A DNA stretch of 64,000 nucleotides from Lachnospiraceae bacterium oral taxon 096 (GTDB taxonomy: Bacteria; Bacillota; Clostridia; Lachnospirales; Lachnospiraceae): the NCBI GenBank assembly GCA_018141845.1, contig CP073340.1:1017001-1081000 (forward strand), read 5' to 3'. The position numbers and the translations under genes are program-made. A model generated the notes under the pieces. It saw only the letters and a program-made list of their open reading frames with translations. It did no database searches and was not told the origin of the DNA. Positions 3,543 through 54,945 of this stretch are shown here, piece by piece; the first letter of the stretch is position 1; each line of letters opens with the position of its first letter.

Positions 3543-3917
3543 ATGGCAAAGTTGACAACTGCAGAGTTTATCGATGCAATTAAGGAATTATCAGTATTAG
3601 AGCTCAACGAGCTTGTAAAGGCTTGTGAGGAAGAGTTTGGCGTTTCAGCAGCAGCTGGCGTTGTAGTAGCAGCAGGTGCAGCAGGTGGTGCAGCAGTTGA
3701 GGAGAAGACAGAGTTCGATGTAGAGCTTACAGAAGTTGGTGATCAGAAGGTTAAGGTTATCAAGGTTGTTCGTGAGGCTACAGGTCTTGGACTTAAGGAA
3801 GCAAAGGATGTTGTTGATGGAGCTCCTAAGGTTCTTAAGACAGAGGTTTCTAAGGAAGAGGCTGAGAACATCAAGAAGCAGCTTGAGGAAGTTGGAGCTA
3901 AGGTTACTCTTAAGTAA
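3543..3917 (+). CDS. rplL: 50S ribosomal protein L7/L12
   Basis: A 124-residue L7/L12: N-terminal dimerisation domain ([19 protein letters not shown]), Ala/Gly-rich hinge, and C-terminal factor-binding domain ([19 protein letters not shown]). It recruits translation GTPases such as EF-Tu and EF-G. The start at 3543 is preferred over ATG 3528 because GGAGG at 3530-3534 lies just upstream of it. A terminator follows, so the operon ends here and does not continue into rpoB as in many bacteria. Confidence 0.97.
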
Positions 3918-3978
3918 TTTGGCTTTAAATTGCATAAAGTATAGCACTATTGAGTTAGTGGTTATATAAGTTGTAAGG

Positions 3979-4018
3979 CACATCATAATTTCACTGGTTA
4001 GTGATTATGATGTGTTTT
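3979..4018 (+). terminator. terminator after rplL
   Basis: An 11-bp perfect stem, CACATCATAAT (3979-3989) with ATTATGATGTG (4004-4014), has an inner CACT/AGTG pair. It is followed by only four T residues. Confidence 0.7.
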
Positions 4019-4087
4019 GCGTTATATATACTTTTTCGATTAGTACAGATGACGGAAGATATCAATCTAAATTTTATAGAATATTAG

Positions 4088-24523: not shown

Positions 24524-25954
24524 ATGAAAATATTTGACGAGCAAAAAATTGTTGCGATGGCACCCAATGCCAATGCAGTGAGTAATGGAAGAAAAATCTC
24601 TGCCAGTGGTGGCTTTGTTCGAAGGATAAAATCAGAGGATGATAGTTTCTATGCGGGAGAATGCAAGGGAAGTGGAAAGAAAAATTATATAGTTTCGGTG
24701 GACTTAGTGGATAGGAACAATCCTGTTTTTCGTTGTAGCTGTCCAAGTCGCCAATTTCCTTGTAAGCATAGCATTGCTCTGATGTTTGAAATGGTCGCTG
24801 ATAAAGCATTTGATATCGAAGATATTCCACAAGATATTTTAGATAAGAGAAGCAAGAAGGAAGTGAGGGAGCAGAAAAAGGCTGAAAAAGCTGAAAAGCC
24901 AAAGAAGGTGACCGCACAATCAAAGGCCGCCAGAACAAAAAAGATAAAGAAGCAGTTGGAAGGGCTTGACCTTTTGAGAGATTTAATGGCTAGAATTACA
25001 GATGTCGGTATTGCGGCGACGGCGAGTACACCATTAAAAGAAAATCAAGCATTGGCAAAGCAACTTGGCGATTACTATTTGCCGGGGGTTCAAGTGATTT
25101 TTAATCGCTTTTTATATGCCATGGAAAAAGTACAAAGAGAAAAGGAGACCAACTATTCTGATGCGGTGGACGAGCTAGTTAAGCTTCGCTATATTGAAAA
25201 GAGAGCAAGAGTCTATCTGGAAAAAAAATTAGAGAGCGATCAGCCAGAAGCGGATGACAATCTCCTCTATGAGGCTTTAGGTGGTGTGTGGAAATTGGAT
25301 GAACTTAACGCACTTGGGCTAAAAAAGGAAAAGGTAAGTCTTGTACAGCTTAGCTTTTCTGTTGAAAATGATCCGGTAAAAAGAGAGTTTGCTGACATTG
25401 GATATTGGATTGATTTAGAGGATGGTCAAATCAATTATACTGCAAATTATTGCCCAGAAAAGGCAAAGAAGTACATTCATAGAGAGGACAGCTTCTTTGA
25501 TGTCAAGGAGATAGAGACACTTTTATTTTATCCAGCAATGGAGGGAGAAAATAAAAGGATTCGCTGGGATAAGGATGGAGAGAGAAAAATTTCAGCAGAA
25601 GACATTCAAAAAATTCGAGGATTTGCAGCAAAGGGAATTTCGGATTGGATTAAGCCGGCAAAGAATGTCCTAAAGGCAACGCTCTCTGACAATGCCTATG
25701 CGGTTTTATTTCACTATTCAAAGATTGGTTTGAATACTGAGGGAGAATTTGTGGCAGAGGATGAGGACAAAAAGCAGATTATTTTGAAAAATAAGCAGGG
25801 AAAGACGGATGTCTTTGGATTTCTTCCCGTAGATGATGTGGAACACAATCAAGTTCTCTTTGGAATTGCCTACTATGATCAAGAAAATCGAAGAATTTGT
25901 GTTGAGCCAAGAAGTGTCATTACTAAGGACAGCGTTGTGCGATTGGCATATTAG
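24524..25954 (+). CDS. SWIM zinc finger protein
   Basis: A 476-residue protein with a SWIM finger near the N-terminus, CSCPSRQFPCKH: Cys71, Cys73, Cys80 and His82 (CxC-x6-CxH). A Lys/Glu-rich linker (about 110-140) is followed by a long C-terminal region without a recognised domain. SWIM fingers bind DNA or proteins. It starts a tightly spaced five-gene operon with a repeat protein, MoxR ATPase, DUF5682 protein and VWA protein. E. coli YehQ is a SWIM protein in the related yeh cluster. Function is unknown. Confidence 0.82.
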   Translation: MKIFDEQKIVAMAPNANAVSNGRKISASGGFVRRIKSEDDSFYAGECKGSGKKNYIVSVDLVDRNNPVFRCSCPSRQFPCKHSIALMFEMVADKAFDIEDIPQDILDKRSKKEVREQKKAEKAEKPKKVTAQSKAARTKKIKKQLEGLDLLRDLMARITDVGIAATASTPLKENQALAKQLGDYYLPGVQVIFNRFLYAMEKVQREKETNYSDAVDELVKLRYIEKRARVYLEKKLESDQPEADDNLLYEALGGVWKLDELNALGLKKEKVSLVQLSFSVENDPVKREFADIGYWIDLEDGQINYTANYCPEKAKKYIHREDSFFDVKEIETLLFYPAMEGENKRIRWDKDGERKISAEDIQKIRGFAAKGISDWIKPAKNVLKATLSDNAYAVLFHYSKIGLNTEGEFVAEDEDKKQIILKNKQGKTDVFGFLPVDDVEHNQVLFGIAYYDQENRRICVEPRSVITKDSVVRLAY

Positions 25955-25966
25955 AGGAGGCGGAAA

Positions 25967-27823
25967 ATGAATTTAGAGATATTGTATACCTTGCGTGAGC
26001 GATTAAAAAATATATTGATTACAGGAACTTCTTTGCTGTCGGAAGATTTTCGATTAAAAAAGGCAGTGGAAGAGATGGCTTTGCTGGCCAAAGTGGCACC
26101 TGTATTTGCCCAGATAGATGCAATGGCAAGGGCATTGTTACAATCAGAAAGAGATGCTGGCGAAAGGGTAATGGACTTATTGGCTCTTGTCAATGCGGTG
26201 ATTGAGACGCAGGCAGATACAGCAAAGGTAGAAGAACTCAAGGAAATAGAAAGTTTTGTAGTTCCAAGGGTAGAGAGAAATTCTTACAAAATGCTTGAGC
26301 CTGTGATGACAGCCTTGACTACAAGAGGAAGTGGAAGATATGAAGTGTTGATGAATGCGAGAAAACTGACACCAGAAATTTTTATGGATTATCGCATTTT
26401 TCCAAAGTATATTCAGGGATTAGGTGATAGTTATAGTGAACTTGCCGCACAGATCAATCAGTGGATGAAGGAAGATGGAAAGGTGATGGTTGCACCGCTA
26501 AAGAGAGATTTTGATCCAAAGGGTGGGACAGAAATGCTCTCAAGACTGGATGTCATTGCAGATGTGGCCAAGGGAGAAGAAAATGATTTCTATCTTTCGA
26601 TAATCAATGCAGAGGCGAGCAAGAATATTCGCACGAGGGCGATTGAGGCACTTCGCTATCAGAAGGAAAATAAGGAACTTCTGTTAGAAATTGCTGAAAA
26701 TGGGGATAAGGCAAGCAAGGAGGCGGCACTGAAGGCTCTTTCGAGATCAAAGGGAAGTACATTAGAAAGGTTGTGGGCGGCTCTTTTAAAAAAAGGTAAG
26801 GTTTCAGTGGAAATTTTAGAGGACTATCCAAATGAAGATTGGGTTTCGGAAATTTTTGCCAACCAGCTCGACGAGGAGCATCAAAGGTTAGAAAAGGCAG
26901 AAAAGAAGGAAGACAGAGCTAAAGTATTAGCAAGTATCAATTCCATTTGGAAGGCGGCCGCAGGCAAGACAAGAAAAGCATTGGTCGAAAAGATCAAATC
27001 CAGTTTGATGATGGTCGAGGAGAGCACACAGCAAACTTATTTTATGCGAGGCATTATGTATTTTCGAACACCAGAATTAGTGGAAAAAATTCATCAACTT
27101 TTTGATGGAAAAGAGAATGCACAGGCGGTGCAAAACCTCTTTTTGCTGAGTCTAATGGAAGATGGTTGTGAGGAAGTATTTGAAAGGTTTTCGCCTTATC
27201 TCAAGGCACACAATGAGGATGTTCTTGCACCGAGTATGGGCATTTTTCATGTATTGTATCGCTGTTTTCGCTTTGCTCATTATGACGATAGCGAGGAACA
27301 TAACATGAGAGAGGAGATCTTGAAAAAGCTCGATCGCAGATGGTATCCGCTCTTGTTGGGATTTCCATGGACAAAGAAACAACAAAGTGCGGTTGTGTAT
27401 GACCCCTATTTGGATGGTGCGGGGGCAATCGAGACTTTGCTAAAGAACATCGAAGATCCAAAGAAAGATTTGGGCGAATATTACATTCCTTTTTTGATGA
27501 CAAGATTGAAGGAAAGAGTCGTTGTTCAAAGGGATATTGAAAACCTAAAGAGATGGGGATGTACAGACTTTTCTGGGGCATTTGAGGGACTAAAAAAGGC
27601 ATTGGCAAAGGGCGTAAATTGGTCAAATGCAAGGCAGTTGGTTTTTGCTCTGGAGGCTTGGAAAGCCAGCAAGCAAGAGGTGAGTGAGCTATTGCAGGAA
27701 GTGAAGACCATTGTCGAAAAACAAAAAAAATCAAGCAATGTACAGGATTTATTAAAGCTTATCTCCTATATTGAAGAAGGAATGGAGTTTGAGGATGCCT
27801 GGAAGAGAGTTTGTAGTGAATAA
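25967..27823 (+). CDS. large helical repeat protein of the MoxR-VWA module
   Basis: A 618-residue, almost wholly helical soluble protein. Segments such as IRTRAIEALRYQKENKELLLEIAE and ASKEAALKALSRSK look like HEAT-type repeats. No catalytic motif is seen. It starts 12 bases after the SWIM gene with a GAGGAGGCGG ribosome binding site and is followed 17 bases later by the MoxR ATPase. It could be a scaffold or a substrate-recognition partner, similar in place to DUF5691 or MolR-like proteins in other versions of this cluster; I cannot confirm homology. Confidence 0.6.
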   Translation: MNLEILYTLRERLKNILITGTSLLSEDFRLKKAVEEMALLAKVAPVFAQIDAMARALLQSERDAGERVMDLLALVNAVIETQADTAKVEELKEIESFVVPRVERNSYKMLEPVMTALTTRGSGRYEVLMNARKLTPEIFMDYRIFPKYIQGLGDSYSELAAQINQWMKEDGKVMVAPLKRDFDPKGGTEMLSRLDVIADVAKGEENDFYLSIINAEASKNIRTRAIEALRYQKENKELLLEIAENGDKASKEAALKALSRSKGSTLERLWAALLKKGKVSVEILEDYPNEDWVSEIFANQLDEEHQRLEKAEKKEDRAKVLASINSIWKAAAGKTRKALVEKIKSSLMMVEESTQQTYFMRGIMYFRTPELVEKIHQLFDGKENAQAVQNLFLLSLMEDGCEEVFERFSPYLKAHNEDVLAPSMGIFHVLYRCFRFAHYDDSEEHNMREEILKKLDRRWYPLLLGFPWTKKQQSAVVYDPYLDGAGAIETLLKNIEDPKKDLGEYYIPFLMTRLKERVVVQRDIENLKRWGCTDFSGAFEGLKKALAKGVNWSNARQLVFALEAWKASKQEVSELLQEVKTIVEKQKKSSNVQDLLKLISYIEEGMEFEDAWKRVCSE

Positions 27824-27840
27824 GAAGATGGAGAGAGAAG

Positions 27841-28926
27841 ATGAGTGAACAATTACAGAGACTTCCAGCGGAAGTACTATTTCAAAAAGAGATTGATGCA
27901 TTGATTGCAGCAGAAAAATATCCTGTTCCGGAGGGTTGGAAGATGTCGCCACGCTCTGTGCTGACCTATATTTTGGGCGGAGATTGTGAGGGTGTGGAAA
28001 TTACACCAAAGTATATTGGAAGCCGACGCATTGTGGAAATTGCTATTTCGACATTGGTAACAGATCGAGCACTACTTTTGATCGGTGAGCCAGGAACAGC
28101 AAAATCTTGGCTTTCTGAGCATCTTTGTGCGGCGATCAATGGCAATTCCACCTGTGTCATTCAGGGAACTGCAGGAACAACAGAAGAGCAAATTCGCTAT
28201 TCTTGGAACTATGCAATGCTGATTGCTGAAGGCCCAAGCAAAAAGGCTCTAGTCAAGAGTCCAATCTATCAGGCAATGGAAGAAGGAAAAATTGCCAGAG
28301 TGGAGGAAATTTCTCGCTGTGCTTCAGAGGTACAGGATGCGTTGATTTCGATTCTCTCAGAGAAGCGACTTTCCATTCCAGAACTTGGAGAAGATGTGGC
28401 AGCAAAGAAGGGATTTTCGATTATTGCCACAGCTAATACAAGAGATCGAGGTGTCAATGAGATGAGTGCGGCACTAAAGAGAAGATTTAATATTGTGGTG
28501 TTGCCAAGTCCAGCGACATTGGAAGAAGAGGTAAAGATTGTACATTCTCGTGTGGAGAGATTGGCAGGAAGTCTAGATCTTTCGGCAAAGGTACCTGATG
28601 AGAAAGTTTTGGAAAAAGTTTGCACCATCTTTCGAGAGCTTAGACTTGGAGAAACTTTAGATGGCAAGCAAAAGGTAAAATCGACGAGCAATGTTCTTTC
28701 TACAGCGGAGGCCATTTCTCTTTTGACCAATAGTATGTCCCTTGCAGGTAGTTTTGGAGATGGCGAAGTGACCGATGCAGATTTGGCAGCGGGATTGCAA
28801 GGAGCTATTATCAAAGAGGACAGTAAGGACAAAAAAGTCTGGGAGGAGTACCTAGAAAATATTATGAAAAAGCGTGGAAGGGCGTGGCTTGGTTTGTACA
28901 AAGAATGTAAGGCACTCAATGAATAG
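27841..28926 (+). CDS. MoxR-type AAA+ ATPase
   Basis: A 361-residue AAA+ protein of the MoxR/YehL type. Walker A is GEPGTAKS (82-89). Walker B is IARVEEISRC, with Glu155-Glu156 where most AAA+ proteins have Asp-Glu. Sensor 1 is ATANTRDRGVNEM and an arginine finger region is ALKRRF. MoxR ATPases usually act as chaperones with VWA proteins to insert cofactors or remodel complexes. The VWA partner is encoded two genes downstream. E. coli YehL has similar size and neighbours. Confidence 0.85.
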   Translation: MSEQLQRLPAEVLFQKEIDALIAAEKYPVPEGWKMSPRSVLTYILGGDCEGVEITPKYIGSRRIVEIAISTLVTDRALLLIGEPGTAKSWLSEHLCAAINGNSTCVIQGTAGTTEEQIRYSWNYAMLIAEGPSKKALVKSPIYQAMEEGKIARVEEISRCASEVQDALISILSEKRLSIPELGEDVAAKKGFSIIATANTRDRGVNEMSAALKRRFNIVVLPSPATLEEEVKIVHSRVERLAGSLDLSAKVPDEKVLEKVCTIFRELRLGETLDGKQKVKSTSNVLSTAEAISLLTNSMSLAGSFGDGEVTDADLAAGLQGAIIKEDSKDKKVWEEYLENIMKKRGRAWLGLYKECKALNE

Positions 28927-28937
28927 GAGGAGATGCG

Positions 28938-31172
28938 ATGAAAGCATTTGGAATTCGACATCTATCCCCGGCAGGAGCCTATTATGTGAGAAAATTTTTG
29001 GACTTGCATCAACCAGATATTGTATTTATTGAGGGGCCAGCAGATTTTAATCCTCTTATGGAAAGATTGACTGATAAGGAAATTCGCCCACCATTTGCCA
29101 TTATGGCCTATACCGTGGAAGCTCCTGTACAGACCATTTGTTATCCCTTTGCACAGTATTCACCAGAATATCAAGCAATACTTTGGGCAAGGGAGAATCA
29201 AAAGGAATGTCGCTTTTTTGATTTGCCATCAAATTATGTCTTGGCACTTCCAGATAGGGGAAGAGATGAAAAAGAGGTCAAAGAAAAGATTTCTCTGTAT
29301 GAAAGAATTGCGAGTCAGAGCGAGGATGGCGATATCGAATATTTTTGGGAGAGAAATATTGAACAGGCAAAGAGTGTACAAGGCTATATGATGGGCAGTA
29401 GAACATTTGGAGAGAAACTTCGGGAAAATACGCCAGTTACCAGCTTTGATATGGTTCGTGATCTCTTGCGCGAGCGATTTATGAAGAGAAAGATCAATGA
29501 CTGTATTGCATCAGGGGTGCCAGAAGAAAAGATTGTTGCGATTACAGGAGCATTTCATACCGTTGGTATTGAAGATAGAGAAGATGAAATGAGGGATGAA
29601 GATCTAGAATCTCTGCCAAGTGTAGAGACAAAGGTGACCTTGATGCCTTATTCCTATTATCGCTTGAGCAAGTACTCCGGTTATGGTGCGGGAAATGCAG
29701 CTCCTGCCTACTACGAACTTTTGTGGGAGGGACTAAATCGGGAAGATGTCACATTTCATGAGCAGATGTATTTGACAAAACTTGCAAACTATATGCGTCT
29801 TCATGGGGGAATCGTCTCATCTGCTCAAGTTATTGAATCCGTTCGTCTAGCCAGGGAATTGGCAAGACTTCGTGGTGGAGAGATTCCAACATTGACGGAT
29901 TTAAAGGATGCAAGTGTTACCTGTATGGGAGAGGGAAAATTTGGTGAGATGGCCATGGGATTTGCAGAGGCTGATATTGGAACGAAAATTGGGTCCATAC
30001 CAGAGGGAGTCTCCCAGACATCCATTCAAAATGATTTTTATCGCCAGTTAAAGCAATTAAAGCTTGAAAAATATAAAGATTCTGTGACACAGCAATTAAA
30101 ACTTGATTTGAGAGAAAATTTGCGGGTAAAAACAAAGGAAAGTGCCTTCTTGGATCTCAATCGCTCCTTTTTTTTGCACAGGCTTTGTGTGCTTGGCATT
30201 GATTTTGCACAAAATCAACGAAGAAATCAAGAAGGAGCGACATGGGCAGAGGATTGGTTGCTTTTGTGGAGTGTAGAGGCAGAGATTCAAATTGTAGAGA
30301 GCATATTAAAGGGCGATACCATCAAACAGGCCGTCAGCTATACTCTTGTGGAGAGGATGAAAAATGCTCACACGATGGCAGAGCTTTCTCAAGTGATGGA
30401 AGATGCCTTTTATTGTGGGATGCCGGAAATTTTACAAAATGCAATGAGGGAAATTGACAATCAAACGGCTGGGGCAATTGCCATTCACGATATTGCCATC
30501 ACCAGTAAAAAGCTTTCGGATATGCTTTTGTATGGAGATATTCGGAAACTCAATCGAGAGCCGATTGTTCCTGTGCTCATCAAGCTTTGTCTTCGTGCAT
30601 CACTTACTATTGTGAGTGAGGCATTTTGTGATGATGCGGCAGCACAGATTTTATGTGAGGACATTCAAATATTACACAATGTATTTCTTGCCAATGAAAT
30701 GCTTGACTATGAACTTTGGATGCGGGCAATGATGGAACTGGCAAGAAGAGATGATGTCAATACTAGAGTTTCGGGAATATGTATGTCCATCCTTCTTGAT
30801 TGTAAGAGAATTGATGCCAATGAGCTTGGAAATGAGCTTTCCAAGCGACTTTCTAGGGGAATGCCTGCAGATCTTGGAGCAGGGTGGTTTTCTGGATTGT
30901 CTATGCGAAATCACTATGCCCTGATTGCGAGACTTTCGATTTGGGAGGCTTTGAGTGACTATCTAGATACCTTGGATGATGAGGAATTTAAGCGTTCTCT
31001 CCTATTTTTGCGGCGAGCATTTGCCGAGTATGATCCAAAAGAAAAGGATATGATTGCAGAGAATTTGGGAGAAATTTGGGGAGTGAATAAGGAAGAGGCT
31101 AGTGAAATTGTGAACACACCGATTACCAGTGAAGATGTTGACTTGGGCGATTTTAGTTTTGATGACTTTTAG
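28938..31172 (+). CDS. DUF5682 family protein (TraB/TIKI-like N-terminus)
   Basis: A 744-residue soluble protein. The N-terminus AFGIRHLSPAGAYYVRKFL and IEGPADFNPLM, with AITGAFHTVGI about 200 residues later, matches DUF5682 (E. coli YehM, similar length). The spacing of the Arg-His, Glu-Gly-Pro and Gly-x-x-His motifs resembles the TraB/TIKI/ChaN fold, whose members include metalloproteases and heme-binding proteins. A hydrolase role is therefore possible but unproven. The rest is helical. It lies between the MoxR and VWA genes. Confidence 0.78.
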   Translation: MKAFGIRHLSPAGAYYVRKFLDLHQPDIVFIEGPADFNPLMERLTDKEIRPPFAIMAYTVEAPVQTICYPFAQYSPEYQAILWARENQKECRFFDLPSNYVLALPDRGRDEKEVKEKISLYERIASQSEDGDIEYFWERNIEQAKSVQGYMMGSRTFGEKLRENTPVTSFDMVRDLLRERFMKRKINDCIASGVPEEKIVAITGAFHTVGIEDREDEMRDEDLESLPSVETKVTLMPYSYYRLSKYSGYGAGNAAPAYYELLWEGLNREDVTFHEQMYLTKLANYMRLHGGIVSSAQVIESVRLARELARLRGGEIPTLTDLKDASVTCMGEGKFGEMAMGFAEADIGTKIGSIPEGVSQTSIQNDFYRQLKQLKLEKYKDSVTQQLKLDLRENLRVKTKESAFLDLNRSFFLHRLCVLGIDFAQNQRRNQEGATWAEDWLLLWSVEAEIQIVESILKGDTIKQAVSYTLVERMKNAHTMAELSQVMEDAFYCGMPEILQNAMREIDNQTAGAIAIHDIAITSKKLSDMLLYGDIRKLNREPIVPVLIKLCLRASLTIVSEAFCDDAAAQILCEDIQILHNVFLANEMLDYELWMRAMMELARRDDVNTRVSGICMSILLDCKRIDANELGNELSKRLSRGMPADLGAGWFSGLSMRNHYALIARLSIWEALSDYLDTLDDEEFKRSLLFLRRAFAEYDPKEKDMIAENLGEIWGVNKEEASEIVNTPITSEDVDLGDFSFDDF

Positions 31173-31183
31173 GGAGTAGTGGA

Positions 31184-32350
31184 GTGAATACAGAAGAGAG
31201 ATTAAAGCGCTGGCGTTTGATTCTTGGCGCACAGACACAGGAAAGATTTGAGCACATGGGTGGGCAGGCTCTTTCAAAGGAAGAGGAAATGATGGATCAT
31301 GCCCTTGCAGCCATCTATAATAGCGATGGGAAATTCCAAGGTGGTGGAAGAGGGGCATCAAATCCACAAATTAGTCGTTGGCTTGGTGATGTTCGTTCTC
31401 TATTTTCAAAGGATTTAGTCAAGATTATTCAAGCGGATGCGATGGAAAGATGTGGATTGAAGCAATTGATTTTTGAGCCGGAGTTACTAGAAAATATTGA
31501 ACCCGACATTCATATGGCGAGCACAATTTTAACACTCAAGGATCAAATCCCAAAGCAAAGCAAGGAAAGTGCAAGGGCATTTATTCAAAAAATTGTAGAA
31601 CAAATCAATCGATTGTTAGAGTCAGATATTCGCCGTGCGGTGACCGCTGCACTCAATCGAAAGGCCCATTCTCCCATTCCATCGGCCTCAGCTCTTGATT
31701 TTCAGACAACAATACGAAAGGGAATTAAGGACTATAATCCAAAGCTTGAAAAGATTATTCCACAAAAGTATTATTTCTTTGAGCGAAGTGCAAAGACGGC
31801 ATCGAGTAAATATACGGTGATCTTAGACATTGATCAAAGTGGTTCGATGGGAGATTCGGTGATTTATTCTTCTATTATGAGTTGTATTTTGGCAAGCATG
31901 AGTGCCATTAAGACAAGAGTGGTTGCCTTTGATACAGAAGTTGTGGACCTGACCGAAAAATCAGACGATCCCATTGACCTTTTATTTGGGTTTACTTTGG
32001 GAGGGGGTACAGATATTGAAAAGTCTATTCGCTATTGTACCCAGTATATAGAAAACCCAAAAAAGACCATATTTTTCTTGATTTCTGACCTAGAAGAGGG
32101 CGGAAATCGTGCAGGAATGTTAAGAAAACTTTCGGCGATGAAAGAAGATGGCGTGACTGTAATTGTCCTTCTGGCTGTCTCTGATGAGGGAAAGCCACAT
32201 TATGATGTCAATATGGCACAAAAAATTGCAGCAAGGGGGATTCCTTGTTTTGCCTGCAATCCAAAGAGATTACCAGAGTTATTAGAAAAAGCATTAAAGA
32301 ATGAGGATTTAGCGGGATTTTCAGATGAAAATATGTCCGCTATGAAATAG
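31184..32350 (+). CDS. VWA domain protein of the MoxR module
   Basis: A 388-residue protein starting at GTG. The N-terminal half is helical. The C-terminal von Willebrand A domain has an intact MIDAS: DQSGS (Asp217, Ser219, Ser221) and a downstream Thr in GGGTDIEKS. VWA proteins bind partners through a metal ion and are typical co-factors of MoxR ATPases. Size and position match YehP of E. coli. It ends the five-gene module; the HD gene starts directly after its stop. Confidence 0.85.
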   Translation: MNTEERLKRWRLILGAQTQERFEHMGGQALSKEEEMMDHALAAIYNSDGKFQGGGRGASNPQISRWLGDVRSLFSKDLVKIIQADAMERCGLKQLIFEPELLENIEPDIHMASTILTLKDQIPKQSKESARAFIQKIVEQINRLLESDIRRAVTAALNRKAHSPIPSASALDFQTTIRKGIKDYNPKLEKIIPQKYYFFERSAKTASSKYTVILDIDQSGSMGDSVIYSSIMSCILASMSAIKTRVVAFDTEVVDLTEKSDDPIDLLFGFTLGGGTDIEKSIRYCTQYIENPKKTIFFLISDLEEGGNRAGMLRKLSAMKEDGVTVIVLLAVSDEGKPHYDVNMAQKIAARGIPCFACNPKRLPELLEKALKNEDLAGFSDENMSAMK

Positions 32351-32351
32351 G

Positions 32352-33110
32352 ATGATGGATAGAGAATATATAAAGAGAGCATTTAAGAGCTATACCGATG
32401 CATATGACAGCAGTGATCCCAAAGTAAAATTAAAGATTGATCATACCTATCGAGTGGCTGACCTTGCGGATAAAATTGCAAGGAGTATTGGACTAGATGA
32501 GGAGGATGTCGATCTTGCATGGCTGCTTGGAATTCTTCATGATATTGGAAGATTTGAACAATTGAGTCGATATCACACCTTCAATGATCGACGCTCAGTT
32601 GACCATGCAAAACTCAGTGCGGATTTATTACATGAGGGGCTGGGAGATATTTTTGTACCCAAGGATGTTGATTACAACCTTGTGGAAAAGGCTGTTCGCT
32701 TGCATAATGTCTTGGAATTACCAAAAGATTTGACCAAGAGAGAAAAGATGTTTTGTGATATTCTTCGAGATGCAGATAAAATTGATATTTTGCGAGTCAA
32801 TTGTGAGACACCGAGAGAACAAATTTATGATCTGCCTCCAGAAAGATTTGCCAATGATCAAGTTAGTGATTTGGTCATGCAGGACATTCTTTCCAAAAGA
32901 AGTGTCAATCGCCAGAATGCCAAGACAGCAGTAGATCCGATTGTTGGACAAATTTCCTTTATCTTTGGTCTTGTCTACCCATGGAGTGTAGAAGAGATGA
33001 AGCGACAGGGATATCTTGATCAAATGTTACATTTTGAGAGTCAAAATGAGAAGACGAGAGCAGACTTTGCACAAATCCAAGAAATAGTTAATAATTTTGA
33101 GGTAAAATAA
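32352..33110 (+). CDS. HD domain phosphohydrolase
   Basis: A 252-residue protein with HD-domain residues: His in KIDHTYRVADLA, the HD pair in ILHDIGRFEQ, His in AVRLHNVLELP and Asp in DILRDADKIDIL. HD proteins are metal-dependent phosphohydrolases, often acting on nucleotides. The substrate is unknown. It begins one base after the VWA stop and ends one base before the next gene, so it is probably transcribed with the MoxR module. ATG 32352 and ATG 32355 are both possible starts. Confidence 0.85.
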   Translation: MMDREYIKRAFKSYTDAYDSSDPKVKLKIDHTYRVADLADKIARSIGLDEEDVDLAWLLGILHDIGRFEQLSRYHTFNDRRSVDHAKLSADLLHEGLGDIFVPKDVDYNLVEKAVRLHNVLELPKDLTKREKMFCDILRDADKIDILRVNCETPREQIYDLPPERFANDQVSDLVMQDILSKRSVNRQNAKTAVDPIVGQISFIFGLVYPWSVEEMKRQGYLDQMLHFESQNEKTRADFAQIQEIVNNFEVK

Positions 33111-33111
33111 C

Positions 33112-33594
33112 ATGAGAAGAGAAGACAGAAGAATTACAGAAGACAATGAGATTGTGGATATTTTGCACAGTGCAGAGATTGTGCATCTGGGATTGATGGA
33201 TGAGGGGTATCCCTATATTGTGCCATTGCACTACGGATTTATTTACGAAGATGGAAAGTTAACCTTATATATGCACGGTGCAGTGGAGGGGAAAAAATTA
33301 GATTTGATTCGCAGTAATGAAAATGCCTTCATTGAAATTGATAACAACAATGGAATTGTCTCAGGTGGAGAAATTCCTTGTCGCTATGGAGCAGCTTATG
33401 CAAGTATTATGGCCAAAGGAAAGGCAGAGATTGTTGAGAATGTGGAAGAAAAGATCAAGGGACTTGAACTTTTAATGAGCAATCAGACACATCGAAATTT
33501 TGAAATCACACCGATGATGACAAGATCTGTGAGCGTGATTAAGTTTTCAGCAGAAGAAATGAGTGCCAAGGCAAGAAAAGTAGCTGCAAAGTAG
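33112..33594 (+). CDS. pyridoxamine 5'-phosphate oxidase-like flavin-binding protein (NimA-like)
   Basis: A 160-residue split-barrel protein: AEIVHLGLMDEGYPYIVPLHYGF at the N-terminus and HGAVEGKKLDLIRSN in the middle are typical of the NimA-type PNPOx-like family. These bind FMN or similar cofactors. Some members reduce nitroimidazoles; most are of unknown function, so resistance should not be assumed. It starts one base after the HD gene. Confidence 0.82.
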   Translation: MRREDRRITEDNEIVDILHSAEIVHLGLMDEGYPYIVPLHYGFIYEDGKLTLYMHGAVEGKKLDLIRSNENAFIEIDNNNGIVSGGEIPCRYGAAYASIMAKGKAEIVENVEEKIKGLELLMSNQTHRNFEITPMMTRSVSVIKFSAEEMSAKARKVAAK

Positions 33595-33635
33595 CGTAAT
33601 ACGAAAGATTTTGTATAGTTTCTGTTGTGATAAAA

Positions 33636-33657
33636 ATAGATAGGTAGATAGGTAGAT
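33636..33657 (+). repeat. short tandem repeat upstream of the TerD gene
   Basis: About two and a half copies of an eight-base unit (TAGATAGG-like) lie 19 bases before the TerD start, just ahead of its ribosome binding site. Slippage could change spacing; with so few copies this is speculative. Confidence 0.5.
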
Positions 33658-33675
33658 TGAGAAAGAGAGGTGGAT

Positions 33676-34446
33676 ATGAGTACCTTTGTAATGAATGTTA
33701 CAAAACCAATGAGTGCAAGTGACATAGAAAGCTTGAATCAAACAAAGGGCATTGTATTGGACAGTGAAAATGTAGAGATTTTGAATACTTTGTATTACAA
33801 GAAAAAAGATACTACAGCCCCAAATAATTGTGCTAAAGGTGTAGAGCAGAAAAATGTAGGAACAAATACACCTTCGTCTGTAATACAGATCACAAGTTTG
33901 ACAAGGAAGGTTACAAAGGGGCAGAAAGTTCCACTGAACTTTAGTTCAAAAAAGCTAAGAGTAAACTTTGGGTGGAATGTGAACAATCCTGCCTGTGATG
34001 TGGATGTATCTGCATTTTTGCTTTCGGAGAGTGAAAAAGTGGTGGGCGATGACTATTTTGTATTTTATGGTCAAGAAAGTAGTCCTGAAAAAAGTGTATT
34101 GTTTAAAAAGGCAGAGACCACAAATGTATTGGAAGTATTTGATATAGATACGGCGACTCTAAATCCGTCAGTGGTTAAGATCGTTTTTGTCATGACGATC
34201 AATCATGCACTGGAAAATGCATTGAACTTTCGTATGCTAAAGGATGCCTACATTCAGATAGTGGATCCAGTCAACAGTACAGAGTTGGTCTCATTTTTGG
34301 TAGAGGAATATTACGACAATATCAACTCCATGATGATGGGCGAGATCTATTTACATAATGGTGCATGGAAGTTTAATGCCATAGGCAATGGGGTGAATAG
34401 AGACCTTGCTGGTCTTTGTGAATTTTATGGAGTACAGGTCGTATAG
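33676..34446 (+). CDS. TerD family protein
   Basis: A 256-residue protein. Residues from about 66 on form a TerD domain: VNFGWNVN, CDVDVSAFLL and DDYFVFYGQESSPEKSVLF with Ca2+-binding-type Asp residues, and a C-terminal EIYLHNGAWKFNAIGNG. The first 65 residues are an unassigned extension. TerD proteins belong to tellurite and general chemical-stress systems and bind calcium. The ATG at 33676 follows GAAAGAGAGG; a GTG at 33670 overlaps that site. An AIM24 gene follows nine bases later. Confidence 0.85.
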   Translation: MSTFVMNVTKPMSASDIESLNQTKGIVLDSENVEILNTLYYKKKDTTAPNNCAKGVEQKNVGTNTPSSVIQITSLTRKVTKGQKVPLNFSSKKLRVNFGWNVNNPACDVDVSAFLLSESEKVVGDDYFVFYGQESSPEKSVLFKKAETTNVLEVFDIDTATLNPSVVKIVFVMTINHALENALNFRMLKDAYIQIVDPVNSTELVSFLVEEYYDNINSMMMGEIYLHNGAWKFNAIGNGVNRDLAGLCEFYGVQVV

Positions 34447-34455
34447 GGAGGAAGT

Positions 34456-35139
34456 ATGCTGACATTTGAAGTTATTAACGAGTTGACGCTTAAGGTTACC
34501 TGTGAGGGGAAGGACACATTGATTACAAAGATGGGTGCTTTTATCGCAGGTGAAAATGACGGAGCAAAGAACTATTCTTTTGAGAAGATGCTACTTGGAC
34601 CAGGAGGGAGTATAGGTCAGGCGGTATTTGGACAGCTGGTAAGAAAAGTTGCAGGTGAGAATATACCTCTTATGAAGGTGAATCTACACGGCAATTCTAC
34701 CACATATTATGCTTGTTATGGACAACATGTCGTTGTATATAAGCTCGCTATCGGCGAGACGGTATCTGTGGAGTCGGGAAATATTTTGGCATTTACCAAT
34801 GACTGTGATTACTCTGTCAGATTTTTGGGAATAGGTGTGCTGTCACAAAAAGGCCTTGCCACAACAACACTTGTAGGAAGGGGAGATGATGCCTATGTGG
34901 CCTTATTGTCCGTTGGCAATCCACTGGTTTTATCCAATGTAAAGTCAATGAATAATATTGCAGTAGACCCAGATGCCGTAATAGGTTGGTTTAGTAAGAA
35001 TGGTATGGGTGATCCACAGATAAAAGCAAATGTATCATGGAAGACTTTTATAGGACAGACATCAGGAGAGTCTTATACTTTTGAGTGGAGTGGAAATGAT
35101 CAAGTGACCGTGCTGATGCAGCCGTGTGAAAGAAGATAA
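34456..35139 (+). CDS. AIM24/TIGR00266-like protein
   Basis: A 227-residue protein of beta-rich AIM24 type (LITKMGAFIAGEND, LHGNSTTYYACYGQHVVVYKL, AFTNDCDYSVRFLG). Bacterial members are often encoded with TerD proteins and are suggested to take part in stress or membrane processes; the biochemical role is unknown. It follows terD by nine bases with a GGGAGGAAG ribosome binding site. A second, diverged AIM24 gene is at 54268. Confidence 0.75.
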   Translation: MLTFEVINELTLKVTCEGKDTLITKMGAFIAGENDGAKNYSFEKMLLGPGGSIGQAVFGQLVRKVAGENIPLMKVNLHGNSTTYYACYGQHVVVYKLAIGETVSVESGNILAFTNDCDYSVRFLGIGVLSQKGLATTTLVGRGDDAYVALLSVGNPLVLSNVKSMNNIAVDPDAVIGWFSKNGMGDPQIKANVSWKTFIGQTSGESYTFEWSGNDQVTVLMQPCERR

Positions 35140-35759: not shown

Positions 35760-35840
35760 GCGAAAATAATATATTTTTTTGTTTCTTTGGCAAAAAATAT
35801 GTTATGATAGTAAAAAATGCAGAGAAAGAAGGGGAAGATA

Positions 35841-36326
35841 ATGAGTGAAAAGAAGTTTTTTCCAATGTTTATTGATATTTCGGACAAGGTATTTTTGGTG
35901 ATTGGCGGAGGAAAGGTTGCCGCAAGAAGAGTAAAGACTTTGGTCAATTTTGGTTGTACTATTAAGTTAATTGCACCCGAAGTAGATGATGAAATTATCA
36001 ATCTGCACTATGACAAGATACATATTATTAAGAGAAAATATGACATTACAGATATGGATGAGGTGGATTTTTGCCTGGCAGCTACAGATATTGCAGAGAG
36101 AAACAGCAAGATTACTTGGGATGCGAAGTTAAATCATATCGCAGTGAACAATGCTTCAGATAAAAATGATTGTGATTTTTATTTTCCTGGAGTAGTGGAT
36201 ACAGCACCATTGACGATTGGTATTTGTGCATCGGGTGTTGATCACAAGCTGGCTAAGCAAGTGACCGACAATATCAGAGAAAAGATTGAGCATATGTTAG
36301 AAGGAGATCAGAAAGAGAATATTTAA
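35841..36326 (+). CDS. precorrin-2 dehydrogenase (siroheme synthase N-terminal type)
   Basis: A 161-residue protein with the NAD-binding motif VIGGGKVAARRVKTL and NNASDKNDCDFYFPGVV, matching CysG-N/Met8/SirC proteins. It oxidises precorrin-2 to sirohydrochlorin with NAD+. The C-terminal part usual in Met8 ferrochelatases is short, so metal insertion probably falls to the next gene (CbiK). ATG 35841 follows AAGGGGAAG; the ATG at 35817 lies before it. The stop overlaps the next start (TAATG). Confidence 0.88.
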   Translation: MSEKKFFPMFIDISDKVFLVIGGGKVAARRVKTLVNFGCTIKLIAPEVDDEIINLHYDKIHIIKRKYDITDMDEVDFCLAATDIAERNSKITWDAKLNHIAVNNASDKNDCDFYFPGVVDTAPLTIGICASGVDHKLAKQVTDNIREKIEHMLEGDQKENI

Positions 36327-37108
36327 TGATGAAGGCCGTACTTGTAGTTAGTTTTGGGACATCCTATCCTGAGACAAGAGAAAAAAATATTGATGCGATT
36401 GAAAGAGACATTGCCAAGGCCATGCCAGAGGCAAGAATCTACCGTGCTTGGACAAGTGGAATGATTAGAAAAAAGGTCAATGAGAGGGATAAACTTGGTG
36501 TAGACAGTGTCGCACAGGCAATGCAAAGAATGCGTGCAGATGGAGTGGATACCTTGATTGTGCAGCCAACTCATGTGGTCAATGGCATTGAAAATGATGC
36601 GATGATTGAGGATGTTCGTGCCCATGCACAGGGATTTTTGGAGATTAAATTTGGGCGACCTCTGCTTACCTATGATCGAGATTATGACGAGGCCATTGAG
36701 GCGATTGGGGGCGATTTGCAGGCCGAGATTGACAAAAAAGAACATACAGCGATTGTGTTGATGGGACATGGAACAAGTCACTATGCCAACTCTGCCTATG
36801 CGGCACTGGATTATAAATTTAAGGATTTGGGTTATTCCAATGTATTTGTGGGCACAGTGGAGGCGTATCCGAGCTTAGACGCTATTTTTAGAAGGTTGAG
36901 AGAAAATCATATTCAAAATATTTTGCTCACACCGTTTATGATTGTTGCAGGCGACCATGCCAACAATGATATGGCAGGAGATGAGGAAGATTCCTGGAAT
37001 ATGCAATTTCAAAAGGCGGGTTTTCAAGTGGAATGTTTAATCAAGGGGCTTGGAGAATATGAGCGTGTGCGTGAAATCTTCGTAGATCATGCAAGAGAGG
37101 CGGTTTAG
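36326..37108 (+). CDS. cbiK: sirohydrochlorin cobaltochelatase CbiK
   Basis: A 260-residue CbiK-type class II chelatase with VLVVSFGTSYPETREKNI at the start, MGHGTSHYANSAY with a metal-binding His, and TPFMIVAGDHANNDMAG with a second His. It inserts Co2+ (early in anaerobic cobalamin synthesis) or possibly Fe2+ into sirohydrochlorin. It overlaps the preceding dehydrogenase by one base and lies three bases before the HemC fusion, so the three genes are one operon. Confidence 0.93.
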   Translation: MMKAVLVVSFGTSYPETREKNIDAIERDIAKAMPEARIYRAWTSGMIRKKVNERDKLGVDSVAQAMQRMRADGVDTLIVQPTHVVNGIENDAMIEDVRAHAQGFLEIKFGRPLLTYDRDYDEAIEAIGGDLQAEIDKKEHTAIVLMGHGTSHYANSAYAALDYKFKDLGYSNVFVGTVEAYPSLDAIFRRLRENHIQNILLTPFMIVAGDHANNDMAGDEEDSWNMQFQKAGFQVECLIKGLGEYERVREIFVDHAREAV

Positions 37109-37111
37109 TTA

Positions 37112-39499
37112 TTGAAATTAAGAATTGGCAGCAGAAAGAGTGCATTGGCACTTCGACAGACGCAACTAGTGACAGAGCGGATCAAGGAATGTTTTCCAGA
37201 CTGTGAGATTGAGATTGTCACCATGAGCACAAAGGGAGATGAACATTTAGACAAGTCATTGATAAAAATTGGTGGAAAGGGTGTATTTACCAAGGAATTA
37301 GAGGAGGCCATTGTTCGAGGAGAAATTGATCTTGCTGTGCATTCGGCCAAGGACTTACCACTGGAAATGACGGAGGGATTAGAAGTATACTCCTGCCTAG
37401 AGAGGGAAAATCCATTGGATGTTTTGGTGACTAGAAAAAATAGGCAATTAAAAGATTGCCAATGGATTGGCACGAGTTCCTTGCGAAGGGCATTACAGAT
37501 AAGAGAAATGAATCCGCATATTGAAATTCGAGATTTGCGTGGAAATGTGCAGACGAGACTAAAAAAGTTAGAAGAGGGTCTTTACGATGGCATTGTTCTT
37601 GCATCGGCAGGAATTCGCAGAATGGATGAGCAACTTGACGATTTCATTGAAAAACTTTGCTTTTGCCCATTTGACATTGAGGAGTTTATTCCTGCGGCCT
37701 GTCAGGGAATTCTTGCCCTTCAAGTAAAAAAGGGTACACACAGAGAGATTGTCGATGCATTACTTGATGATCAGACGCAGGAAGCCTTTTTAGCAGAGCG
37801 AGCATTTTTGGAGGAATTAAATGCGGGCTGCAATGCACCTTGTGGTATTTATGCAAGGCGAGAGGGAAAAAGCGTTCGAATGTCGGCAATGTATGCCAAA
37901 GATGGGAAAAAGATAAAAAAGAGCGAGGTCTTGTGTGAAGCATCCCAAAGTGTGGAGATGGCAAGAAAGATCGCAAGATATTTATACAGTGGCAAGGTAT
38001 TTCTTGTTGGTGCAGGGCCAGGAAATATGGATTTATTGAGTGTGAAAGGACTTGAAAAAATCAAGGAAGCAGATTGTATTGTATATGATAGTTTAATTGA
38101 TCCATCACTTCTGAATCAGGCAAGACTTGAAGCCGAGCTCATCTATGTTGGAAAGCGTGCAGGGGCCCACTATAGGAAGCAACCAGAGATTTCGGCCCTG
38201 TTAGTGGAAAAGGCAATGGAGGGGAAAATGGTCGTTCGCCTAAAGGGAGGAGATCCCTTTATCTTTGGCCGTGGTGGGGAAGAAATTCTAAAATTGAGAG
38301 AAAATAACATTGAGTTTGAAGTGATTTCTGGTGTATCTTCTTCCTATGCCGTTCCGGCAGCAGCAGGTATTCCAGTGACTCACCGTGGACTTTCCTCCTC
38401 CTTCCATGTCATTACTGGTCATGAGAGCGAGCAAAAGACGAGGGAAAGTCTTGACTTTTCGGTGCTGGCAAAATTGGAAGGGACATTGGTCTTTTTAATG
38501 GGATTAAAGAGCCTGCCAAGAATTGCTCATCAGTTGATGATTGCAGGAAAACCAAAAAATACACCCGCAGCTGTGATTTCTAAAGGATGCACAAGAGAGC
38601 AAAAAAAGGTAATTGGAAATTTAGAAAATATTGCAGATTTGGCAAGAGAGGTCGAGGCACCAGCAATTACGGTTGTTGGGGATGTAGTGTCTCTTTCTGG
38701 GGAAATGGATTGGTCTTGGAAAGAAGAAATGGTTAAGCCACTCTTTGGGAAAAAGATACTGCTTACAGGAAGCAGGCAGATGGTTCAAAAACAAAGAGAG
38801 GTCTTCAAGCGACAAGGGGCACAGACAATTGAACTTAGTTTGATTGAGACCGTGCAACATCCAAGCAAGGTGTTCTTTGATGCGTTGAAAGATATTGAGA
38901 AGTATTCATGGCTTGTGTTTACCAGTGTCAATGGTGTGCGAGCATTTTTTGATTGTATTCAAGGGGAAGATGAGGAAGGACAATTATATCTTGACCAGAG
39001 GCGATTGGCTAAAATGAGATTTGCTGTGATTGGGGAAGGGACAAGGAAGTGCCTTCGAGAATATGGCTATATGGAAGATATGATGCCTAATACCTTTACA
39101 GGAAGGGATTTGGCTAGAGAGTGGGTCCCAACATTAGAAGAAAATGATCAAGTTTTACTTGTCAGAGCAGAAGTGGCGGGAAAAGAGATTGTGGATGCAT
39201 TGAGAGAGAGCGGAATTTCTTATGTAGATGCAACTATCTATTCCACCTATGTGGATCGAAGAAGGGAAGAAGAGTTGCAAAGAATTTTGCCTGATGTTGA
39301 CTATGTGACGATGGCCAGTGCTTCTTGTGCAAGAGCATTTTCAAAAATGAGGGGAAATGTTCCATATCATGCGAAATTGATTTCTATCGGGCCTGTGACC
39401 AGCAGAGCTTGTATAGAATGTGGCGTTCAAGTGGATGCGACTGCAAAATATTATACAGCAGAGGGCTTGTGTGAGCGGATTTGTGAATTAGAAAAATAG
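37112..39499 (+). CDS. HemC-CobA-HemD trifunctional fusion
   Basis: A 795-residue protein of three enzymes. Residues 1 to about 290 are hydroxymethylbilane synthase (IGSRKSALALRQTQLV, HSAKDLPLEM with Asp81, cofactor Cys240 in NAGCNAPCG). Residues about 293-535 are uroporphyrinogen-III C-methyltransferase (VGAGPGNMDLLSVKG, RLKGGDPFIFGRGGEE). Residues about 543-795 are uroporphyrinogen-III synthase (KKILLTGSRQMV to the end). It would turn porphobilinogen into precorrin-2 in one polypeptide. The start is TTG 37112. CobA-HemD fusions are known in Clostridia; adding HemC is less common. No HemB, HemA or HemL gene is in the window. Confidence 0.9.
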   Translation: MKLRIGSRKSALALRQTQLVTERIKECFPDCEIEIVTMSTKGDEHLDKSLIKIGGKGVFTKELEEAIVRGEIDLAVHSAKDLPLEMTEGLEVYSCLERENPLDVLVTRKNRQLKDCQWIGTSSLRRALQIREMNPHIEIRDLRGNVQTRLKKLEEGLYDGIVLASAGIRRMDEQLDDFIEKLCFCPFDIEEFIPAACQGILALQVKKGTHREIVDALLDDQTQEAFLAERAFLEELNAGCNAPCGIYARREGKSVRMSAMYAKDGKKIKKSEVLCEASQSVEMARKIARYLYSGKVFLVGAGPGNMDLLSVKGLEKIKEADCIVYDSLIDPSLLNQARLEAELIYVGKRAGAHYRKQPEISALLVEKAMEGKMVVRLKGGDPFIFGRGGEEILKLRENNIEFEVISGVSSSYAVPAAAGIPVTHRGLSSSFHVITGHESEQKTRESLDFSVLAKLEGTLVFLMGLKSLPRIAHQLMIAGKPKNTPAAVISKGCTREQKKVIGNLENIADLAREVEAPAITVVGDVVSLSGEMDWSWKEEMVKPLFGKKILLTGSRQMVQKQREVFKRQGAQTIELSLIETVQHPSKVFFDALKDIEKYSWLVFTSVNGVRAFFDCIQGEDEEGQLYLDQRRLAKMRFAVIGEGTRKCLREYGYMEDMMPNTFTGRDLAREWVPTLEENDQVLLVRAEVAGKEIVDALRESGISYVDATIYSTYVDRRREEELQRILPDVDYVTMASASCARAFSKMRGNVPYHAKLISIGPVTSRACIECGVQVDATAKYYTAEGLCERICELEK

Positions 39500-54267: not shown

Positions 54268-54945
54268 ATGAAATACGAAATTAAGGGTGGAAACTTTCCA
54301 GTGGTAATATGTACTTGTGATGCCGGAGAGAAGTTACTCTGTGAGGCTGGAGCAATGAGTTGGATGAGTGCAAATATGAAGATGAGCACCAACATGACAG
54401 GCGGTCTTGGAAAGGCTTTTGGAAGAATGTTTTCTGGAGAGTCTATGTTTATGAATAGCTATGAAGCACAGGGTGGAGAAGGAATGATTGCCTTTGCATC
54501 GACAATGCCAGGAGAGATTCGAGCAATTAAAGTGGAGCCAGGAAAGGATGTTATCCTTCAAAAGAGAGCATTTTTGGCTGCGGAGTCAGGAGTGGAGTTA
54601 TCTGTATTTTTGCAGAAAAGATTAGGATCAGGCTTCTTTGGCGGCGAAGGATTTATTATGGAGAAGGTATCTGGAGAGGGTATGGTCTTTGCAGAGATTG
54701 ATGGAAGTGCTGTGGAGTACACTCTCGAAAAGGGACAGAGTCTAGTTGTAGATACAGGATATGTGGCGATTATGGATGCAACTTGCACAATGGAAGTGCA
54801 GACTGTTCCAGGTGTAAAGAATGTGCTCTTTGGTGGCGAGGGACTATTTAATACTGTAGTCAAGGGACCAGGAAGAGTAATTGTTCAGACAATGCCAATG
54901 TCTAAGTTAGCTGGAGCTATTGGCGGAGCAATAGTAAAGAAGTAG
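54268..54945 (+). CDS. AIM24/TIGR00266 family protein
   Basis: A 225-residue protein of the TIGR00266 type (KGGNFPVVICTCDAGEKLLCEAGAMSWM, MPGEIRAIKVEPGKDVILQ, VETTPGVKN-like VQTVPGVKNVLFGGEG). It is a beta-rich protein of unknown biochemical role, more typical of the family than the TerD-linked copy at 34456. It starts the transcription unit with rarA two bases downstream. Confidence 0.88.
   Translation: MKYEIKGGNFPVVICTCDAGEKLLCEAGAMSWMSANMKMSTNMTGGLGKAFGRMFSGESMFMNSYEAQGGEGMIAFASTMPGEIRAIKVEPGKDVILQKRAFLAAESGVELSVFLQKRLGSGFFGGEGFIMEKVSGEGMVFAEIDGSAVEYTLEKGQSLVVDTGYVAIMDATCTMEVQTVPGVKNVLFGGEGLFNTVVKGPGRVIVQTMPMSKLAGAIGGAIVKK

Follow-up and report, generated by a model that had tools for sequence, protein, structure and literature searches.

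A conserved five-gene cassette of an oral Lachnospiraceae bacterium couples a MoxR–VWA pair with a DUF5682 protein that has a predicted TIKI-type hydrolase domain

What might five tightly spaced genes around a DUF5682 gene do together? The genes in question lie within a 64,000-nucleotide stretch of Lachnospiraceae bacterium oral taxon 096 (CP073340.1, positions 1,017,001 to 1,081,000; hereafter the window), whose genome (GCA_018141845.1; G000) is a single contig of 2.24 Mb with one DUF5682 gene. An earlier inspection of the letters without database searches (the sequence-only reading) had described five genes spaced 11–17 bases apart and a possible effector complex. The coordinates of the open reading frames (ORFs) bear out this layout: the five ORFs run in the same direction, separated by 12, 17, 11 and 11 bases. 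A sodium:alanine symporter gene upstream of the SWIM gene lies on the opposite strand, and the SWIM gene is therefore the first of its run. The domains that had been named (SWIM, helical repeat, MoxR with Walker B Glu-Glu, DUF5682, and VWA with a metal ion-dependent adhesion site, MIDAS) were recovered by Pfam and by conserved residues, the HEAT match being weak on its own. The five genes are:

24524..25954, + strand: SWIM zinc-finger protein, 476 residues (ORF; Pfam SWIM 1.1e-4, 22.1 bits, cut-off 19.6)
25967..27823, + strand: HEAT-repeat (alpha-solenoid) protein, 618 residues, fast-evolving (ORF; HEAT_2 3.3e-4, 21.3 bits, below the 27.7 cut-off)
27841..28926, + strand: MoxR-type AAA+ ATPase, 361 residues (AAA_5 1.2e-40; bpMoxR 2e-7)
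28938..31172, + strand: DUF5682 protein, 744 residues, with a predicted TIKI-type domain (~1–240) and a mostly helical part (~250–744) (DUF5682 7.8e-139)
31184..32350, + strand: VWA (CoxE-type) protein, 388 residues (VWA_CoxE 9.3e-41)

Related loci were fetched from named genomes with an alignment of 11 DUF5682 proteins. The best 80 of 581 were taken, so that the sample represents the nearest relatives and is not random; families were called with profiles seeded with the window's own proteins. At least 5.6 kb before and at least 1.5 kb after DUF5682 were available in 59 of the 80 loci, and all five families were present in 59/59. The order was exactly that of the window in 52 of them; the HEAT gene was doubled in 4, SWIM and HEAT were swapped in 2, and 1 carried a fusion. 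An internal gap of more than 400 bases occurred in 7/59. Counting the window and loci L001–L091 together (92 loci), 61 had exactly the arrangement SWIM-HEAT-MoxR-DUF5682-VWA, a further 4 had two HEAT genes and 2 had the swapped order. The other 25 comprise contig-end cuts, short extracts, other partner types, a fused locus (L079) and L082, to which we return below. The commonest Pfam family in the immediate-neighbour proteins occurred in 6/118, among the matches listed, and the cassette itself is therefore the unit. This cassette is real, conserved and far from chance; the sequence-only reading, which would have fallen had the five families rarely been neighbours, was right on this point.

The fifth (solenoid) slot of the cassette is exchangeable: it is occupied by a HEAT, a DUF5691 or a DUF4132 protein, a point that is new here. 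A tree of 88 DUF5682 proteins, made by a quick method and with some long branches flagged, gave three clades with Shimodaira–Hasegawa-like approximate likelihood-ratio supports of 100, 100 and 99. These clades coincide with the partners HEAT, DUF5691 and DUF4132; the exceptions are L082 and L137, the latter lacking a DUF4132 gene nearby. The clades cut across host taxonomy: both HEAT-type and DUF4132-type genomes (L137, L138) occur in the family of the window, and one genome (G555) holds a DUF5691-type and a DUF4132-type cassette on separate contigs. Since the partner tracks the DUF5682 clade and not the host, we read the association as functional coupling.

Record annotation of the Rhizobium and Deinococcus loci gives SWIM, DUF5691, AAA, DUF5682 and VWA in the order of the window, and that of Methylosinus gives SWIM, DUF5691, AAA and DUF5682, again in this order. 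These loci resemble the window in slots and order; they differ in having DUF5691 in place of HEAT, without clear sequence homology, and in belonging to another DUF5682 clade. The run of Agrobacterium vitis reads AAA, DUF5682, DUF4132, VWA, SWIM, and its DUF4132 protein starts with a WGR domain. Whole-genome searches of 20 genomes found DUF5691 in 5, always 1.2–1.7 kb from the DUF5682 match, and DUF4132 in 11, within ~6 kb of DUF5682 in 9. The two remaining genomes have DUF4132 on a different contig, with DUF5682 near a contig end (G526), or on other contigs (G013). DUF5691 and DUF4132 were both absent from the five HEAT-type genomes in this search (G000, G280, G217, G060 and G061; G217, a short contig, was assigned to the HEAT type by tree position only). 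DUF5682 itself is patchily distributed, with 7/60 genomes in the window's family and 5/299 over the cut-off in its phylum (own genome included in both), and 12/299 in the phylum of Wohlfahrtiimonas (that genome included). In the tree, the sister of the window's protein is that of Fusobacterium (98), and the Wohlfahrtiimonas protein is placed among those from Bacillota.

Several loci of the other two types show variations. In Deinococcus and Hymenobacter, an additional small gene precedes DUF5682. Methylosinus trichosporium (L094) retains the VWA gene as fragments only, after an otherwise complete DUF5691-type run. At L124 (G555:C32), a DUF4132-type DUF5682 has three successive DUF4132 matches next to it.

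The SWIM protein accompanies all three partner types. Its zinc-finger motif is located as follows:

24734..24769, + strand: SWIM motif CxCx6CxH (C71, C73, C80, H82), conserved in relatives

The motif is kept in 55/55 HEAT-type and 8/8 DUF5691-type relatives. The three types have homologous SWIM families, with hhalign E values of 5.9e-32 over 389 columns (HEAT-type against DUF5691-type) and 2.2e-6 over 433 columns (HEAT-type against DUF4132-type). The repeat protein evolves much faster: its identity was the lowest of the five in 1827/1830 locus pairs, and the median pairwise identities were 0.23 for HEAT, 0.41 for SWIM, 0.49 for DUF5682, 0.57 for VWA and 0.71 for MoxR. A HEAT_2 match at E ≤ 0.01 was obtained for 41/64 members of its family. 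Homology among the HEAT, DUF5691 and DUF4132 proteins was considered and is not established. The hhalign E values were 0.07 (HEAT against DUF5691), 0.041 (HEAT against DUF4132) and 0.45 (DUF5691 against DUF4132), with HEAT-family controls at 0.16–0.26; in the two comparisons that involve the HEAT family, the strongest local alignment, itself weak, fell on the HEAT stretch of that family.

Two gene fusions bear on the SWIM protein. In Holdemania filiformis (L079), the SWIM and HEAT proteins form one ORF of 1053 residues. In Hymenobacter (L093), SWIM and DUF5691 share an ORF of 1009 residues; its SWIM part, with the motif CSCPSRVFPCKH, matched our own profile at 2.5e-30 and fell short of E 0.01 with the Pfam SWIM model. 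The SWIM protein is therefore coupled to the protein of the solenoid slot in two of the types. An apparent VWA-SWIM fusion in L129 came from a long ORF in which Pfam found no second domain and was treated as ORF over-extension. Four loci (L027, L037, L049 and L081) carry two HEAT-protein genes per cassette, which looks like a duplication of the recognition part.

How does this arrangement compare with the yeh genes of Escherichia coli? The order in K-12 is yehF (PF05406, WGR), the pseudogene yehH, yehI (DUF4132), yehK, yehL, yehM, yehP and yehQ. Homologous MoxR, DUF5682, VWA and SWIM proteins stand together in one run both there and in the window, and the TIKI residues, Walker motifs and MIDAS are kept in the DUF4132 type, to which E. 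coli belongs, as in the window. The match to yehLMPQ drawn by the sequence-only reading thus holds in domain type and kinship. It does not hold in size for the SWIM protein, since YehQ has 614 codons in K-12 and that of the window only 476 residues. The two runs also differ in the place of the SWIM protein (last in E. coli, first in the window), in their DUF5682 clade and in the partner, which is DUF4132 in E. coli; the window's genome has no DUF4132 and has the HEAT protein in its place. The partner slot is exchangeable by clade, and SWIM is fused both to HEAT and to DUF5691; the counterpart of the repeat protein in E. coli is therefore probably yehI. The sequence-only reading had set the repeat protein apart as an extra beside the yehLMPQ set. 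This view has to be given up: elsewhere the slot is filled by DUF5691 or DUF4132, and yehI lies beside yehKLMPQ.

According to the available part of PMC3893208, YehL is one of seven MoxR subfamilies and yehL encodes one of the two MoxR ATPases of K-12. As far as the accessible text of each goes, yehM is among the genes mutated in CuSO4-exposed E. coli (PMC12409786), yehQ strains were built among butanol-tolerance candidates (PMC6442406), and a transposon was found in the metG/DUF4132/yeh region (PMC9334617), so that disruption there is tolerated. We found no paper with the term DUF5682 and no functional study of the yehLMPQ cassette in a search that covered subscription journals thinly.

The N-terminal features of DUF5682 are:

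28938..29681, + strand: predicted TIKI-type domain of DUF5682, N-terminal 248 residues (predicted structure)
28959..28961, + strand: H8 of GIRH, candidate catalytic His, strand 1 (invariant, 88/88)
29031..29033, + strand: E32, candidate catalytic Glu, strand 2 (invariant, 88/88)
29469..29483, + strand: R178-E179-x-x-M182 motif (invariant, 88/88; paired by hhalign with RNxxM of the TraB family)
29547..29558, + strand: GxxH (G204, H207) (invariant, 88/88; paired by hhalign with GAGH of the TraB family)

The AlphaFold2 model of the whole protein had a mean predicted local distance difference test score (pLDDT) of 87.7; modelled alone, the N-terminal 248 residues reached a pLDDT of 89.8 and a predicted template modelling score of 0.88. 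A VIA-align fold search with the N-terminal model returned one Tetrahymena chain without family assignment at ranks 1–3, and ChaN, HopBA1, EreC, PMT, RRSP-numbered entries and BcR135 at ranks 4–12. ChaN, in an entry titled heme-binding protein, was the named bacterial match with the highest Z (9.6). Residues 1..216 were matched to 3895..4049 of RRSP, which would place residue 8 on His-3902 if the alignment is ungapped. When the whole protein was searched, the matches to its helical part were all of a generic repeat kind.

A set of His, Glu and Arg residues (H8, H207, E32, E77, E142, E179 and R178) was invariant in all 88 proteins, and the N-terminal domain thus contains residues for the two His and two Glu of the TIKI catalytic set, with E77, E142 and E179 as candidates for the second Glu; their loss, which would have spoken against the sequence-only reading, did not occur. 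The hhalign comparison with the TraB family paired RExxM...GAxH with RNxxM...GAGH (E 0.0062, probability 6%), and the nine other pairs in this comparison had E values of 0.098 or worse. The modelled fold and the invariant residues support a TIKI-superfamily hydrolase domain at the N-terminus of DUF5682. Like TraB, ChaN, Ere, RRSP and HopBA1, it combines the predicted fold with invariant His and Glu; it differs from them in that it forms part of a 744-residue protein, which continues into a helical C-terminal portion, and belongs to a MoxR-VWA cassette. Could a conserved acidic tail of this protein serve as a ligand of the MIDAS? The tail is confined to the HEAT type, its strict pattern occurs in 30/63, and we leave this as a guess.

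Kinship with yehLMPQ had been noted before, and what is added here is the exchangeable slot, the two SWIM fusions, yehI as the probable counterpart and model-based support for a TIKI-type active site. With DUF5682 as a putative TIKI-type hydrolase whose residues can be mutated, and yehI as its likely partner, an open annotation becomes testable.

Motifs of the MoxR and VWA proteins were also preserved:

28084..28107, + strand: Walker A GEPGTAKS (G82, G85, K88) (55/55 relatives, three types)
28303..28308, + strand: Walker B Glu-Glu (E155, E156) (55/55 relatives, three types; 33/33 HEAT-type)
28480..28485, + strand: candidate arginine finger R214-R215 (55/55 relatives)
31832..31846, + strand: MIDAS DxSxS (D217, S219, S221) (66/66 relatives of three types; 47/47 HEAT-type)
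32009..32011, + strand: MIDAS Thr T276 (64/66 over three types; 46/47 HEAT-type)
32087..32089, + strand: MIDAS Asp D302 (66/66 over three types; 47/47 HEAT-type)

The sensor Asn (N199) of MoxR was likewise kept in 55/55. Hence the predicted ATPase and MIDAS residues are intact in the window's proteins; R214-R215 presumably act as the arginine finger, as we take from MoxR/midasin-type AAA+ proteins. MoxR proteins form rings, and the MIDAS sites of VWA proteins grip clients, as in RavA-ViaA, CbbQ-CbbO and midasin. The window's cassette resembles RavA-ViaA and other such chaperone pairs in its MoxR AAA+ and VWA partners, and differs from them in having three further constant partners, including the TIKI-type protein. 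Suspected MoxR-DUF5682 fusions in L130 and L132, again from long ORFs, were treated as ORF over-extension because Pfam gave no second domain and 13 type-C MoxR ORFs stand alone.

How might these parts work together? We propose, at roughly even odds (about 50%), that the five genes encode one ATP-driven machine with a MoxR-VWA motor, a DUF5682 hydrolase as its output and a recognition part of SWIM and HEAT. The MoxR ATPase, presumably as a ring, and the VWA protein, through its metal site, would be motor and adaptor. As their dedicated client, DUF5682 would be a hydrolase of the TIKI superfamily, mounted on a helical scaffold and most likely acting as a peptidase or esterase. A single recognition unit, made up of the SWIM zinc finger and the fast-evolving HEAT solenoid, would bring the target. 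Remodelling by MoxR-VWA at the expense of ATP would then switch the hydrolase on, or present the target to it. Here we infer a physical complex, a ring, the order of events, hydrolase activity and target recognition. Two loci weigh against the constancy of the cassette. In L082 (Gemmataceae; outside the flank filter owing to its downstream limit), ~7 kb before MoxR contain no SWIM or HEAT gene recognised by the profiles, and an unclassified ORF of 575 codons lies just before MoxR. In L024, which is cut by a contig end, MoxR directly follows SWIM.

A more specific version of this proposal is tentative. According to it, the cassette would be a so far undescribed machine for targeted hydrolysis in which MoxR-VWA gates a TIKI-type peptidase and an exchangeable arm (SWIM with HEAT, DUF5691 or WGR-DUF4132) chooses the target. 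Such a machine would parallel Clp- or Lon-type regulated proteolysis in modular and portable form, with yehF-yehI-yehLMPQ as its representative in E. coli. If true, an ATP-gated hydrolase with exchangeable recognition parts would join the known kinds of regulated proteolysis. A ClpS and a ClpA-like gene directly follow VWA in 7/80 loci (L017, L022, L023, L027, L049, L063 and L081; for example, L017:4552-6772 and L022:8995-12280), the latter named from its size and its place between ClpS and Aat, not by a family scan. Aat is present too in 6 of the 7; L017 ends before that place. The DUF5682 proteins of these loci are 82–95% identical and therefore represent one lineage, a Lachnospiraceae-type clade. 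Since the cassette stands directly before ClpS, ClpA-like and Aat in this clade, its cuts may there feed the N-degron pathway. This idea does not extend to the window: the link is confined to that lineage, and the window's genome has neither ClpS nor Aat. ClpS was found in 2/7 genomes of the same family with DUF5682 and in 6/53 without it, Aat in 1/7 and 2/53.

Could MoxR-VWA instead be a maturation chaperone? The pair would insert a metal into, or remodel, an enzyme encoded elsewhere, as in CbbQ-CbbO, NorQ-NorD and the I-D pair of Mg-chelatase, and DUF5682 would be a cofactor-binding or scaffold subunit and not a hydrolase. The heme-binding title of the ChaN entry and the yehM mutations under CuSO4 point in this direction, and those MoxR proteins whose roles are known serve to mature particular enzyme complexes, as stated in the available part of PMC3893208. 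However, the cassette has no constant neighbour enzyme, as the low count of its commonest neighbour family shows, and the invariant His, Glu and Arg of DUF5682 would fit catalysis. The window's own CbiK and HemC/D genes are separated from the module by other genes, and their families are not among the 25 neighbour families listed, a point to which no separate test was devoted. We consider this explanation possible, though somewhat doubtful. A conflict system, anti-phage or inter-bacterial, with an ATP-controlled effector as in the MoxR-vWA ternary systems, seems unlikely to us. The patchy distribution, the disagreement of the gene tree with taxonomy and the fast-evolving HEAT partner are in line with it, and the window's MoxR scored above the Pfam bpMoxR cut-off (30.8 versus 27 bits). 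MoxR-vWA conflict systems, including some with HEAT effectors, are described in the accessible part of PMC7159879, and the cassette is like their MoxR-vWA-VMAP sets in the first two components; Pfam found no VMAP or effector-associated domain in the five proteins, and the third component was thus missing. The vWA-MoxR-VMAP systems found near CRISPR loci, in what is available of PMC10910872, are not this cassette. Against conflict, the yehLMPQ stretch is present in 5155/5426 E. coli genomes at ≥ 80% coverage, a finding easier to reconcile with a physiological system that is portable than with an island of phage-defence genes. PADLOC gave only partial, weak matches (PDC-S62 at 5.6e-6 over 95 SWIM residues; mad8 at 1.2e-3 and an RtcR-type model at 5.9e-3 on MoxR), and the five proteins did not make up the full set of any described anti-phage system in that search. 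Among the matches listed for the 118 neighbour proteins (25 of 111 families, with no matched control set), mad3 occurred in 3, and mad2, mad5, a type I specificity subunit and a type I methyltransferase in one each. We therefore rejected a defence island, since only mad3 was seen more than once among those listed. A phage-borne origin was also rejected: screening viral contigs with the alignment of the HEAT type (A2) yielded no relative, and the sole phage record, MT835988, is unverified and has a DUF5682 that branches inside Lachnospiraceae-type sequences, so that by its place in the tree it looks like a bacterial contig. The tests that bear on a conflict or phage role thus gave negative or weak results.

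The third explanation, a DNA-damage machine in which SWIM/HEAT or WGR/DUF4132 finds damaged DNA or a bound protein that MoxR-VWA-DUF5682 then removes, is in our estimate slightly less probable still. It draws on the in-operon DUF4132 protein of Agrobacterium, with its WGR start, and on Deinococcus radiodurans, in which the DUF4132 protein DRA0166 and the WGR protein DR2173 are members of the DdrO/IrrE regulon that increase with mitomycin C; the same source, in its available part, also says that MolR has been described as LexA-regulated (PMC8533742). These damage data, however, concern DUF4132 and WGR genes and not DUF5682. A LexA-like site with one mismatch ends 9 bases before the yehF start, but 22 kb contain 8 such matches, this one included, with 6.3 expected. 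LexA boxes preceded the module in only 2/67 HEAT-type loci (0.25 expected from shuffles), and control by the SOS response was rejected on this ground. Least probable by far is a part in a Ter-type stress response. In its favour, a single base separates the VWA stop from an HD gene, which is followed by a Nim-like flavin gene (1-base gap), TerD (2.2e-48) and AIM24 (3e-17), all in the same direction at 32352-35139 (TerD and AIM24 at 33670-35139); these genes may be co-transcribed with the module in the window. However, relatives of the four were found at 0/91 other loci (E ≤ 1e-5, single-sequence seeds; 63 of these loci had at least 3 kb after VWA), and a Ter/tellurite unit with the module was rejected on this ground.

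Other observations concern the surroundings and individual loci. In the window, a second gene of the AIM24 family (54268-54945; 1.8e-70) closely follows rpoB-rpoC, at a distance of ~20 kb from the first. Tetrapyrrole genes at 35817-39499 encode an NAD-binding protein, CbiK and a 795-residue triple fusion of HemC, TP-methylase and HemD. MoxR-DUF5682-VWA is present in record MT835988.1 (L005), which is from human faeces and bears the label of an unverified bacteriophage. Inside two cassettes, before MoxR, lie AAA-ATPase-like genes that carry PD-(D/E)XK domains (L051:7165-8865 and L081:4148-5740), and a phosphatidylethanolamine-binding-protein-like gene stands between DUF5682 and VWA in two others (L036:12198-12764 and L037:12267-12761). 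At L134 (G217:C158), the DUF5682 frame contains one in-frame TAG, reflecting either a broken gene or an assembly error.

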